Of a stretch of DNA of 56,925 nt, positions 1 through 42,008 are shown in pieces. The translations under genes were made by a program, and so were the position numbers. Source of the stretch: Verrucomicrobiales bacterium. GTDB taxonomy: Bacteria > Verrucomicrobiota > Verrucomicrobiia > Verrucomicrobiales > DEV007. The number at the start of each line of letters is the position of its first letter. The stretch's first letter is position 1. The notes below the pieces were generated by a model. The model did not search any database and was not told where the DNA came from. It saw only the letters and a list, made by a program, of their open reading frames with translations. The stretch is taken from the NCBI GenBank assembly GCA_029233965.1, contig JARGOP010000032.1:1-56925 (forward strand). Reading direction: 5' to 3'.

Positions 1-2116
1 GAGCAGCCTCGGCCTGGGCACGTGCCTGTTCTTCGGCCATCGCAGTCTGCTGAACGGCTTCGGTCTGAACAGTTGCCTGTTCTTCGACCATCGGAGCTTG
101 CTGAGCGACTTCGTCCGTATTTCCGGCCGGCTCCTCCTTCATCTCTTCCGCTTGCCCGGGAGCTTGTTCATCGGTGATGTCTCCCCCGGACGCGGCCTCA
201 GTCCGGGAGACCGTTGGTGCTTCCGTCATTGCTTCTTCTCGGAGCGCCCCGCCCGGAGGACTCGTCGGCTCGTTCGCCATCTCCGTTTCTTGTGGCCCGG
301 CCCCGGTTTGAACCGCGTTCGACACCTCCGCAGTCGCGGTTTCCTGACTCCCTCCGGGTGGGGTATTCGGCTGCTCTGCGGGTAACGCCGGTTCCGGAGC
401 GGTTTCCGGCTGCGCTGCGTTGACAACAACCGGCCCGGAAGACGATATCTCGCCAGGTGCTTCGACAACAGGCTCCGTCGCAATGGTCAGGGTTTCCGCT
501 GCGGGGAGGACTGATCCGGGCGCATCACTGCCGCCCGGAGACGTTCCGATTGTTTCGGAAGCGGAGAGGTTCGTTTGTTCGGGTGCGGTGGGGACTGCTG
601 CCACATCCTCGCCGGTAGTCGCTCCTTCCGCGACAGGAGGATCGGGAGAACTGTCGGCAGGCGATTCCGCGCTCTCGACGGGAGAGGTAACCGAAGGCGT
701 CACCGGCGCTGCGACCTGACCGCTTTCGAGGGCGGGAGAAGAGGGAATCGTCGGAGCAACAATTGGCGCGACAACTTCAGGGACGGCCGCCACGGCAGCT
801 TCCTCCCTCGCGGTCACTTTGGCGACATCGTTGGCAATTTCCTCTCGAATTTTCGCGACCTCAGTCGCGGGCACCCCGGCAAAGGAATCGACGCGGCTGG
901 CCTCCCGGATCCGTTCTGCGATCTTCGGCAGGACGGCAGGAGTTTTGGCAGCAGCAAGCGGAAGGGTCACCAGGGAGAGATGGGATTTTTTCCCGTTTGT
1001 TTTCGCCCCGTGATTCCGCGAGCCATGCCCCCCCCTTTCCACATAGACCTCACGCTGCGGGATGCGGGTACGACATGCGCTTTCCACCTGAAGCCTCGAA
1101 GGCCCCCCCTGTTGAATGAAAAGATCGGGATGACCGTGACCGTGACGTGGAATAATCCGGGTTGTATTCACGCTGCGGCGGAAGAGTGCAGGGTTCCGGT
1201 CAACCGGAGAATAAACCGTGGTGTAGCTGTTGCTGACGAAACGGTTCGTCGTAATGAAGATGTAATTCGAAGGTCCGAGATCGTATTTCAGATCACAATT
1301 CCGATCCGCTCCACGATAGCGGTCACGGCGTGGAGGCAAAGGTGCCCAGCCGACATGGTCGTTCGTCTGACGCCAGGAGACCCAGGCGGGAGCCCACTCG
1401 GAATCGGGCACCCAAACCCAGCCGACCCGGTTCAGATTGACCCATCGCCCGTAATGATAGGTCGCCCAGCCGAAGGGCTCATTTGAGTTCCAGGCCCAGC
1501 CGTATTCGGTCCACGACCAGGATCCATCAAGGTAGGGCCGCCATCCCCGATTGGAAGCGACATGGGGCTGCCAGGAATTCCCGTATTCATCAATCTCGAC
1601 CCAGCGACCATGCGGAGAGAGCCCTTCGTAAAACATCGTGTAGTCGCGGGGACGTTCATCCGGCCGGTCCTGATAGGGCACCTCGTGATCACGTGGATTA
1701 CCGGAGGAAGCGGTTTCATAGTCCGGGACAGGAATCGGCTCCGCTCGCAGTTTCGGAGTCGCTTCGAGGCGACGTGCGAGAGTTTCACTTTCGATACGGG
1801 CGGCATTGGCCTGCTCCTCCAGCTCCCGGTTCTGGCGGGTCAGCGAATCGAGAGAGTCGCGCAAGTCCGCATTCTCACGCTCCGACAGCGCGGCTTGCAT
1901 TTCTGCGAGCTGCTTCTCGATGAGGGCACTGCGATTCTCCATCTCAAAGGCCTGACGCGACATGAGATCCTGCGCTTCTTCCAGTTCGGCCCGGGTTTGA
2001 GCAAGCTCGGCTTCGGTGGTGGGAATGTCGCCGACTTGAGGATCGGGAGCCCGATCACAGGAAGAGAGGGCGGCGAGAAATGAAACGACTGCGAAGAGAC
2101 GTAAAGGGAGGTGCAT
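1..2116 (-). CDS. DUF6600-like tryptophan-rich lipoprotein, 3' end outside window
   Basis: Open without a stop from the ATG at 2116 to the window edge (705 codons seen), so the protein is C-terminally incomplete here. A signal peptide ends in the lipobox LSSC with Cys20 as the lipidated residue, followed by an acidic coiled-coil-like stretch at about 35-120. Residues about 165-260 are rich in Trp/Gly/Tyr with repeated motifs such as GRW, YGW and YGRW, which resembles DUF6600 proteins. A basic His-rich patch follows, and the rest is a low-complexity Pro/Ala/Glu/Thr tail. I infer a cell-envelope lipoprotein anchored by its N-terminus; no catalytic motif is visible. It is divergent from the FGE-like gene at 2305. 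Family assignment rests on the Trp/Gly motif pattern only. Confidence 0.75.
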   Translation of the reverse strand, partial: MHLPLRLFAVVSFLAALSSCDRAPDPQVGDIPTTEAELAQTRAELEEAQDLMSRQAFEMENRSALIEKQLAEMQAALSERENADLRDSLDSLTRQNRELEEQANAARIESETLARRLEATPKLRAEPIPVPDYETASSGNPRDHEVPYQDRPDERPRDYTMFYEGLSPHGRWVEIDEYGNSWQPHVASNRGWRPYLDGSWSWTEYGWAWNSNEPFGWATYHYGRWVNLNRVGWVWVPDSEWAPAWVSWRQTNDHVGWAPLPPRRDRYRGADRNCDLKYDLGPSNYIFITTNRFVSNSYTTVYSPVDRNPALFRRSVNTTRIIPRHGHGHPDLFIQQGGPSRLQVESACRTRIPQREVYVERGGHGSRNHGAKTNGKKSHLSLVTLPLAAAKTPAVLPKIAERIREASRVDSFAGVPATEVAKIREEIANDVAKVTAREEAAVAAVPEVVAPIVAPTIPSSPALESGQVAAPVTPSVTSPVESAESPADSSPDPPVAEGATTGEDVAAVPTAPEQTNLSASETIGTSPGGSDAPGSVLPAAETLTIATEPVVEAPGEISSSGPVVVNAAQPETAPEPALPAEQPNTPPGGSQETATAEVSNAVQTGAGPQETEMANEPTSPPGGALREEAMTEAPTVSRTEAASGGDITDEQAPGQAEEMKEEPAGNTDEVAQQAPMVEEQATVQTEAVQQTAMAEEQARAQAEAA
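12..114 (-). repeat. 17-residue tandem coding repeat in the lipoprotein tail
   Basis: Two adjacent 51-base units encode near-identical 17-residue blocks built around (A/V)QQ(A/T)xMxEEQA. The array continues toward or past the window edge, so the copy number is unknown. It lies in the low-complexity C-terminal part of the lipoprotein. Confidence 0.6.
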
Positions 2117-40583: not shown

Positions 40584-40886
40584 CTATGCCGCCTCGCACT
40601 GGCAAATCGCGGAAATACACCCGCAGCCGCCGCAGAGATCGAAGCGGCCGCCGCAAGCCGCAGGCAGACCGTCGAGGACCCGGTTGATGCGGCAGCGACA
40701 CGCTCCGCATCCCGTTCCGGCCCCGGTTTTCGTCATCACTTCTTCAACCGTTTTGACGCCGCCGGATTGAACCATGGCATGCACGGAAGACTCAGCGACT
40801 CCGGTGCAGTGACAGAGCACGCCCCCCACTTCACCGGCCGACGCAAAGCGGCAGGTGGGAATGAGGGGTGGTGCCTGGGTTTTCAT
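40584..40886 (-). CDS. bfd: Bacterioferritin-associated ferredoxin-like [2Fe-2S] protein with Cys-rich tail
   Basis: 100 residues from the ATG at 40886 (TTG at 40925 would overlap bfr). The Bfd/Fer2_BFD domain is seen from CHC (Cys25, Cys27) to GTGCGACRCRI (Cys60, Cys63), the four ligands of the [2Fe-2S] cluster. Unlike E. coli Bfd, it has a 20-residue N-terminal extension and a C-terminal tail with six further cysteines (CGG, CGGCGC, CQC). It lies 17 bases after bacterioferritin on the same strand, so the pair is one unit. Bfd passes electrons to ferritin-stored iron to release Fe2+. Confidence 0.85.
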   Translation of the reverse strand: MKTQAPPLIPTCRFASAGEVGGVLCHCTGVAESSVHAMVQSGGVKTVEEVMTKTGAGTGCGACRCRINRVLDGLPAACGGRFDLCGGCGCISAICQCEAA

Positions 40887-40902
40887 GGTCTGATGGACGA
40901 TT

Positions 40903-41385
40903 TTATTCGCCCTCTGATTCACCAAACTGCTGAGCGAGGTATTTCTCGATGCCGACCAACTTGATCATATCGAACTGAGTTTCAGCCCAATCGACACTCT
41001 CTTCAGACTCAACCACCATGCGCTCCATCAGCTCACGGGACCCCGCGTCCTTCACTTCGATACAAAGCTGAATCGCCTCGTTGTAGGTCGCCACCCCCTT
41101 GCACTCAAGCGTGTGGCTGTCCTTGATCTGCTGCTCCGGATTGTCGCCCACGAGGATCTTGTCGTAGCGCGCAATTTCAGGAATCCCGTCGAGGTAAAGA
41201 ATGCGGTCAATCACCTCTTCCGCATGTTTCATTTCCTCGATGGACTCATCGTAGAAGTGCTTCGCGAGCTTGTTCAGCCCCCAGTCAGCACACATTTTTG
41301 AGCAGATAAAATACTGATTGATTGCCGTCAGCTCGATCGTAAGACCGGCATTCAGCGCGTCGATAACTTCCTGGTTTCCCTTCAT
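40903..41385 (-). CDS. bfr: Bacterioferritin with incomplete diiron site
   Basis: 160 residues, the normal length. Glu18, Glu51, heme-ligand Met52, His54 and Glu94 are in the usual places (ELTAINQYF, EEMKHAEEV, TLECKG). Aligned to E. coli Bfr at SRELMERMVVESEESVDW, Glu127 and His130 of the ferroxidase centre are both replaced by Ser. The protein keeps the heme site and cage fold but may not oxidise iron alone. It precedes the Bfd gene. Families with paired Bfr subunits, one catalytic and one heme-bearing, offer a precedent. Confidence 0.92.
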   Translation of the reverse strand: MKGNQEVIDALNAGLTIELTAINQYFICSKMCADWGLNKLAKHFYDESIEEMKHAEEVIDRILYLDGIPEIARYDKILVGDNPEQQIKDSHTLECKGVATYNEAIQLCIEVKDAGSRELMERMVVESEESVDWAETQFDMIKLVGIEKYLAQQFGESEGE

Positions 41386-41651: not shown

Positions 41652-42008
41652 ATGGCCAAAGTCACGATTTATCATTACCCGCATTGAGGCTCCTCTGACA
41701 ATGCCCTGGCGGTCGCCAGCGAGCTCGGAGTCGATCACGAAGTTGTCCTTTACATCAAGACCCCTCCCGGAAAAGAGGAGCTGGAAGCGATCGTTTCCAG
41801 GCTCGAAGACCCGGTCGAGGATCTCGTGCGAAAGGATTCCAAATTCAAAAAGCTCGAACTGAATCCGGACGACTATGTCGGAAATCCGGCAGCCGTGGTC
41901 GAGATTCTCGTGAAGCACAAGCAACTCCTCCAACGCCCTGTGTTGGTCAAAGGAGACAAATCGATCATCGGAAGACCGAAGGCGCGCATCGTCGAGTTTC
42001 TATCCTGA
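41652..42008 (+). CDS. ArsC-family thioredoxin-fold reductase, probable selenoprotein (UGA at catalytic Cys)
   Basis: ATG at 41652 gives a 118-residue ArsC/Spx-family protein if the TGA at 41685-41687 is read through. Before it is VTIYHYPH and after it GSSDNALA, aligning with HNPACGTSRNTL of E. coli ArsC so that TGA sits at catalytic Cys12. Downstream the match continues to the end with LYIKTPPGKEELEAIV, LVRKDS (Arg60), LLQRPVLV (Arg95) and IIGRP (Arg108), the three ArsC active-site arginines. There is no other stop in frame. I infer selenocysteine at residue 12; the alternative is a nonsense-mutated gene. It follows the divergent bfr gene; no sel genes are in the window. Confidence 0.75.
41685..41732 (+). 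promoter_or_regulatory. Bacterial SECIS-like stem-loop directly after the UGA
   Basis: Just after the TGA, GGCTCC (41688-41693) can pair with GGAGTC (41727-41732), and within it CTGGC (41706-41710) pairs with GCCAG (41715-41719) around a GGTC loop. The apical G starts 24 bases from the UGA. A G/GU apical loop at 16-37 bases is the known bacterial SECIS layout recognised by SelB, and fdhF also presents GGUC in its loop. Confidence 0.6.

Follow-up and report, generated by a model that had tools for sequence, protein, structure and literature searches.

The described bacterioferritins (Bfr) closest to the protein considered here are six-ligand homo-oligomers, such as E. coli Bfr and Pseudomonas aeruginosa BfrB, and hetero-oligomers such as SoBfr12 of Shewanella. 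The two irons of the E. coli Bfr centre share Glu51 and Glu127 as bridging ligands; His54 and Glu18 belong to site A, and His130 and Glu94 to site B (PMC7762939). Asn17 and Asp96 line a "ferroxidase pore" in the same protein, and Asp132, Glu135 and Asp139 are named as residues of the B-channel (PMC4319037). In SoBfr12, SoBfr1 is the dominant ferroxidase subunit and has Glu18, Glu51, His54 and Glu94 as its ligands; mutants in its Glu128 and His131 showed no visible loss of stored iron by in-gel iron staining, and the kinetics shown are those of E18A and M52L (PMC12120770).

The window analysed here, a 56,925-nt stretch of DNA from a Verrucomicrobiales bacterium (GCA_029233965.1, contig JARGOP010000032.1), carries a bfr gene with a bfd gene beside it (Table 1). 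The Bfr protein scores 171.8 bits against NCBIfam TIGR00754 (bfr; cut-off 125.55) and also matches the Pfam ferritin domain. Its AlphaFold2 model (mean pLDDT 95.7) is a four-helix bundle with a short helix E (helices at residues 5-34, 38-64, 83-110, 114-144 and 146-152), and by family and fold the protein is a bacterioferritin. An earlier note on this DNA had claimed that Ser occupies the positions of both Glu127 and His130 and that Glu18, Glu51, His54, Glu94 and the heme ligand Met52 are kept. This is confirmed by the model and by ungapped phmmer alignments with the four best chains shown (Azotobacter 1sof and 2fkz, Pseudomonas BfrB 4tob and 3is7), in which Tyr25 is retained as well. The model superposes on P. 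aeruginosa BfrB, 44% identical in sequence, at 0.7 Å rmsd over 156 residues (Z 26.5), and Foldseek agrees with this superposition. Because residues 1..156 lie on 1..156, the helix-D register is right, and at the level of the backbone positions 127 and 130 are predicted to hold no substitute carboxylate or His, the arrangement that the earlier note had named as its refutation. A shift of this register, with Glu126 and residue 129 or with Glu128 taking over, was considered and rejected on the strength of the ungapped sequence and structure alignments and of the variability of residue 129. Tyr101 was likewise rejected as a replacement ligand, being nearly invariant across the alignment and present in ordinary Glu127/His130 relatives (for example L135-L142).

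Table 1. Features of the bfr locus and two further genes of the same genome; positions are those of the window unless another handle is given.
Feature	Position	Strand	Basis
bfr, heme bacterioferritin with Ser127/Ser130, 160 aa plus stop	40903..41385	-	ORF, profile, alignment, model
Codon 127, TCT (Ser; Glu in six-ligand Bfr)	41005..41007	-	Read directly; alignment
Codon 130, AGT (Ser; His in six-ligand Bfr)	40996..40998	-	Read directly; alignment
bfd, Bfd-like [2Fe-2S] ferredoxin, 100 aa from ATG at 40886	40584..40886	-	PF04324, 48.7 bits (cut-off 26), from a scan as 113-aa ORF
Gap from bfr stop to bfd start, 16 nt	40887..40902	-	bfd downstream, same strand
Cys-rich C-terminal tail of Bfd	40587-40697	-	
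ArsC-family ORF with in-frame TGA at codon 12	41652-42008	+	PF03960, 49.7 bits (cut-off 24)
Dps-like protein with complete E...ExxH...E...ExxH ferritin-type site	G000:C83:53108-53527 (L002 1489-1953)	-	Site read by eye

The two substitutions are widely shared. A scan of the genome collection with the window's Bfr returned 69 relatives, and among these and the loci of its family, Ser127 and Ser130 occur together in 47 distinct sequences (query included) that are 69-100% identical to the query. Their sources are mostly metagenome genomes of Verrucomicrobiales, Akkermansiaceae, Roseibacillus and Opitutia, with one (L071) from Planctomycetales. In the 48 of 50 distinct DNA rows that reach both sites, codon 127 is TCC (24), TCG (16), TCT (6) or TCA (2), and codon 130 is AGC (31), AGT (16) or TCT (1). 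With several codons at each Ser, it is the residues that are kept and not one DNA word, and 47 distinct sequences with both Ser and varied codons exclude chance or sequencing error. A search of a single open-access library found no publication on a Ser127/Ser130 Bfr class.

A related form, Ser127 with His130, was found in L077 (Planctomycetaceae), the locus on whose genome two further samples, of its order and of its phylum, are centred and on which their Planctomycetota label rests. A Bfr above the cut-off is present in 112 of 170 genomes of the order. The 112 loci from the 111 genomes other than that of L077 comprise 64 Ser/His, 42 Ser/Ser, 5 Thr/Ser and a lone Glu/His locus (L299), which is a second gene of G713, just 37% identical and of another kind; Glu18, Tyr25, Glu51, Met52, His54, Glu94 and Glu128 are present in all 112. 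In the phylum sample, 38 of 246 genomes exceed the Bfr cut-off, 13 of which repeat genomes of the order of L077; the remaining 25 hold 19 Glu127/His130 forms, one Ser127/His130 form (L343) and five with Glu127 and Ala, Gly or Ser at 130. Glu127/His130 is also the form of eight full-length relatives above the cut-off (40-46% identical) from elsewhere in the phylum of the window itself. As read from these sequences, loss of helix-D ligands has taken place on more than one occasion among these bacteria, and the ligands of helices A-C stay. The five Planctomycetota proteins that keep Glu127 (L335, L337, L338, L341 and L342) mark a second route to loss of the site-B His.

The relationships were examined in a quick tree without bootstrap, built from 220 distinct rows out of 309 after rows with more than 3 gaps or fewer than 120 filled columns were dropped, and with columns 43, 50, 127 and 130 excluded; 82 of its 217 inner branches have support below 80. 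In this tree, 154 distinct sequences from Verrucomicrobiota and Planctomycetota, the window's included, form one branch (SH-aLRT 96) in which residue 127 is Ser (149) or Thr (5) and no row has Glu127. Ser130 is also present in 91 of the 154, and these rows form one branch of the first tree (support 93). Essentially all 154 retain Glu18, Glu51, His54 and Glu94, the exceptions being a row whose end is missing at 18 and a row with an unread X at 54. The heme ligand Met52 is found in 46 of 47 Verrucomicrobiota, all 44 Planctomycetota Ser130 and all 63 His130 sequences; given Leu52 in the Ser/Ser protein L075, heme is not a universal feature. The Verrucomicrobiota rows are nested within the Planctomycetota Ser130 rows (62-row branch at 98, inner forks weak), and the sequences suggest that the Verrucomicrobiota form was acquired by transfer from Planctomycetota. 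After the addition of 26 rows, the 154-row branch persists (97), with L343 outside it, and 14 Ser130 rows separate from the main group. These trees imply one or two losses of His130 inside the class, and loss in the Glu127 group as well (support 58). Across the rows there is a strong pattern in which His130 goes with Lys43/Gly50, and Ser130 with His43 and Glu or Asp at 50. A statistical claim of covariation among 130, 43 and 50 was dropped because the His/Ser switch occurs once on the first tree and has one or two origins overall. Present in many related bacteria, mostly without any hint of a helper subunit, the change seems to represent a stable variant of the design rather than damage.

Comparison with the known types places this protein outside each of them. 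It shares with homo-Bfr (E. coli Bfr, P. aeruginosa BfrB) the fold, Met52, a Bfd partner gene and the B-channel residues, but it fails the six-ligand test (Glu18, Glu51, His54, Glu94, Glu127, His130) at Ser127 and Ser130 and has Ile and Lys for the pore residues Asn17 and Asp96. The earlier note had reasoned that a half-site would be a poor ferroxidase; this is not safe, since SoBfr1 (PDB 9iig) works with Glu18, Glu51, His54 and Glu94, the counterparts of Glu127 and His130 being dispensable, as described in PMC12120770. SoBfr1 is the best precedent for a working four-ligand centre, and its relatives also carry a hydroxyl residue at 127: in the Shewanella-type group, Thr127 is found in 20 of 23 aligned rows, the other three being aligned one residue off. 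In contrast to the window's class, however, Glu and His are still present in that group one residue further along helix D. SoBfr1 also differs in being heme-free, without Met52, and in needing SoBfr2, whereas the window's Bfr has Met52, and so lacks the Met52 loss that defines a heme-free subunit of the SoBfr1 type, and no partner for it was found. Heme subunits of the SoBfr2 type resemble it in having Met52 and a weakened centre, but the weakening is the reverse: they have lost Glu94 (Val, Leu or Ile in 16 of 19 read), carry Asp51 and keep Glu127 (19 of 19). The protein therefore belongs to neither the six-ligand homo-Bfr type nor the hetero-Bfr heme subunit type as these are defined. Many Shewanella and Enterovibrio loci (within L079-L101) hold bfr pairs in which one member has Thr127 and lacks Met52, and its counterpart has Met52 and Asp51 but in most cases not Glu94.

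The reading preferred here, which we consider about equally apt to prove right or wrong, is a self-sufficient, homo-oligomeric heme Bfr that is emptied by Bfd and whose di-iron centre has lost two of its six protein ligands. Such a protein would assemble into a 24-mer and bind heme. Fe2+ would enter through B-type channels, as Asp132, Glu135 and Asp139 are kept in the 47 Ser/Ser sequences (one has Glu139; residue 139 varies in Planctomycetota) and the ferroxidase-pore positions are changed (Asn17 to Ile in 43 of 46, Asp96 to Lys in 36 of 47), a combination that points to the B-channel and not to the pore. With Glu127 and His130 lost, site A plus Glu51 and Glu94 remain, and Fe2+ may be held at Glu18, Glu51, His54 and Glu94 as in a loosely bound, transit-type site. 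Oxidation at this site would persist, slower or by a different route than in a six-ligand centre. The Fe3+ mineral would then grow on the cavity wall at His43, Glu47 and Glu50 of this branch and would be emptied as the neighbouring Bfd passes electrons through the Met52 heme. Several points stand against the scheme. Loss of the Glu127 bridge and of His130 may abolish di-iron chemistry, and SoBfr1, the precedent, retains a Glu and a His one residue on in helix D, its mutants at these residues having been judged by iron staining of gels. L075 lacks the heme ligand, and no Bfd-like gene stands within 2.5 kb at 9 of the 40 Verrucomicrobiota loci and at 8 of the 32 Planctomycetota loci with His130.

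The release step draws on the neighbouring gene, the only BFD-domain match in its own genome. From the short same-strand spacing, bfr and bfd probably share one transcript; in the hetero-Bfr paper, bfr and bfd are described as never found co-transcribed (PMC12120770). A phmmer search of the PDB with the window's Bfd returned no natural Bfd at E <= 0.001. Of 40 Verrucomicrobiota loci, 31 have a Bfd-like gene no more than 2.5 kb away (on the same strand downstream in 17 and upstream in 10, convergent in 4); among Planctomycetota (loci L224-L305, without L193-L222) the same holds for 41 of 43 Ser130 and 24 of 32 Ser127/His130 loci, all of them convergent. In these counts, close relatives are not thinned, and loci with a flank shorter than 2.5 kb and no Bfd were dropped (4 of 44 Verrucomicrobiota, 5 of 37 His130 and 1 of 44 Ser130). 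A bfr-Bfd link that survives rearrangement into three arrangements argues for a working Bfd-heme iron release, and heme-driven release is probably intact. The earlier note had proposed a heme-bearing or electron-entry role, and both features hold up: Met52 makes the protein heme-competent by sequence, and Met52 together with the adjoining Bfd gene makes electron entry very likely part of its work. The Cys-rich C-terminal tail of the window's Bfd may form a second metal centre. Of the 68 Ser/Ser loci that have a Bfd-like match, 45 show at least five Cys past the Bfd cluster motif, compared with 1 of 39 Ser/His loci and none of five Thr/Ser loci.

Animal L-chain ferritin has an acidic cavity wall and no heme, and it works together with H chains. 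It has no di-iron site (PMC7762939). An L-chain-like heme cage is a possible, if doubtful, alternative for the present protein: there would be no di-iron chemistry, iron would be oxidised by air, H2O2, heme or another protein, the mineral would form on the acidic cavity wall, and the cage would serve mainly for storage and for release via Bfd. Two of the six ligands are gone, the bridge among them, and acids of helix B that would face the cavity by helix geometry are fixed where His130 is lost (in Verrucomicrobiota Glu50 in 47 of 47, Glu57 in 47 of 47 and His43 in 46 of 47; in Planctomycetota Glu or Asp at 50 in 44 of 44). The replacement of the E. coli pore residues fits this reading as well. 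An iron store fed by another protein, which the earlier note had offered as its other suggestion, likewise stands as a possible alternative. An unused centre, however, should let Glu18, Glu51, His54 and Glu94 drift over 154 sequences, and no drift is seen. The likeness to the L chain extends to a ferritin subunit with an incomplete centre, but different ligands are lost in the animal protein.

A six-ligand centre restored by residues such as Glu126, Glu128 or His43/44 is improbable. Glu128 is invariant in the class and His at 43 or 44 is nearly universal, but Glu128 is common in ordinary Bfr too, position 129 varies, and in the model, which keeps the helix-D register, Glu126 and Glu128 are predicted to sit as in ordinary Bfr.

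The earlier note had also proposed a mixed cage in which this protein is the heme-bearing subunit and a partner supplies the complete site, and had advised looking for a second complete bfr or ftn gene. No such gene was found in the bacterium's own genome (96% complete), which has no second TIGR00754 match and no other 24-mer-type PF00210 match; its one other PF00210 match, of 154 aa, is nearest to Dps profiles (below their cut-offs) and to Dps-type structures, and we take it to fall in the 12-mer class. Dps proteins form a 12-mer class (PMC12120770). The rubrerythrin profile PF02915 found nothing in this genome, and the window contains no tandem bfr pair. Close relatives of the Dps-like protein are common across the same family of genomes. 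The Ser/Ser gene is held by 24 genomes of that family, a count that includes the copy of G013, cut by the contig start, and omits fragments or broken copies in G023, G030 and G062. In seven of the 24 it is the lone PF00210 match; a further 15 have additional matches whose nearest profiles are those of Dps, at scores under the Dps cut-offs, so that 22 of 24 lack another 24-mer-type ferritin by this search. The remaining two, G025 and G027, encode a partner-like protein, an extra Bfr-like product with a complete site (EELGH...DEEGH) and Leu52. A second sample of 22 Ser/Ser genomes, drawn from 23 of the 46 loci L033-L078, gave Bfr alone as PF00210 match in 19; in G651 the second match is a fragment at a contig end that agrees with the Bfr at all 63 residues they have in common and is probably the same gene. 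Hetero-Bfr with divided labour is on record (PMC12120770), and yet the partner is missing too often for a mixed cage to be the general rule, which is mostly not supported; for the window's protein it is quite unlikely.

Use of the cage for another metal, or for a redox or heme task other than mainly iron storage, would fit the altered metal site but is very unlikely, given that iron-storing Bfr has the same B-channel residues, Met52 and Bfd neighbour (PMC4319037). A decaying ferroxidase heading for loss, of which a degenerate partial copy with an in-frame stop in G030 and another with TGA in G023 might be taken as signs, can practically be set aside, as 47 distinct sequences have both Ser fixed under varied codons, the remaining motifs persist, and a Bfd gene is near at most loci.

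Near the bfr gene lies the ArsC-family ORF of Table 1, with its in-frame TGA at the family's active-site Cys position. Because the TGA persists in a relative of 84% identity (L034/L018) and the genome has a SelB above its cut-off, the ORF probably encodes a selenoprotein. A search for tRNA-Sec gave only matches below the cut-off, and the RNA fold after the TGA is no better than that of shuffles (z 0.53).

The four-ligand, Bfd-emptied cage preferred above leads to a broader and more tentative proposal, which we hold at somewhat short of even confidence: a single-subunit heme cage may be a third kind of Bfr, found in Planctomycetota and Verrucomicrobiota, that lacks the bridged six-ligand centre, uses a four-ligand, probably asymmetric or mononuclear site together with the cavity wall, and releases iron via heme and a Bfd that is Cys-rich-tailed in part of the class. 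If true, this would be an exception to the stated rule by which all prokaryotic ferritin subunits carry a catalytic iron-oxidation centre of the kind known so far. Fixed in nature and apparently without a partner, a Bfr that lacks the bridging Glu and the second His offers a test of which ligands a cage needs, and of whether storage requires site B. Related bacteria supply a natural set of variants for this purpose, from Glu127/His130 through Glu127 with Ala, Gly or Ser at 130 and Ser127/His130 to Ser127/Ser130.
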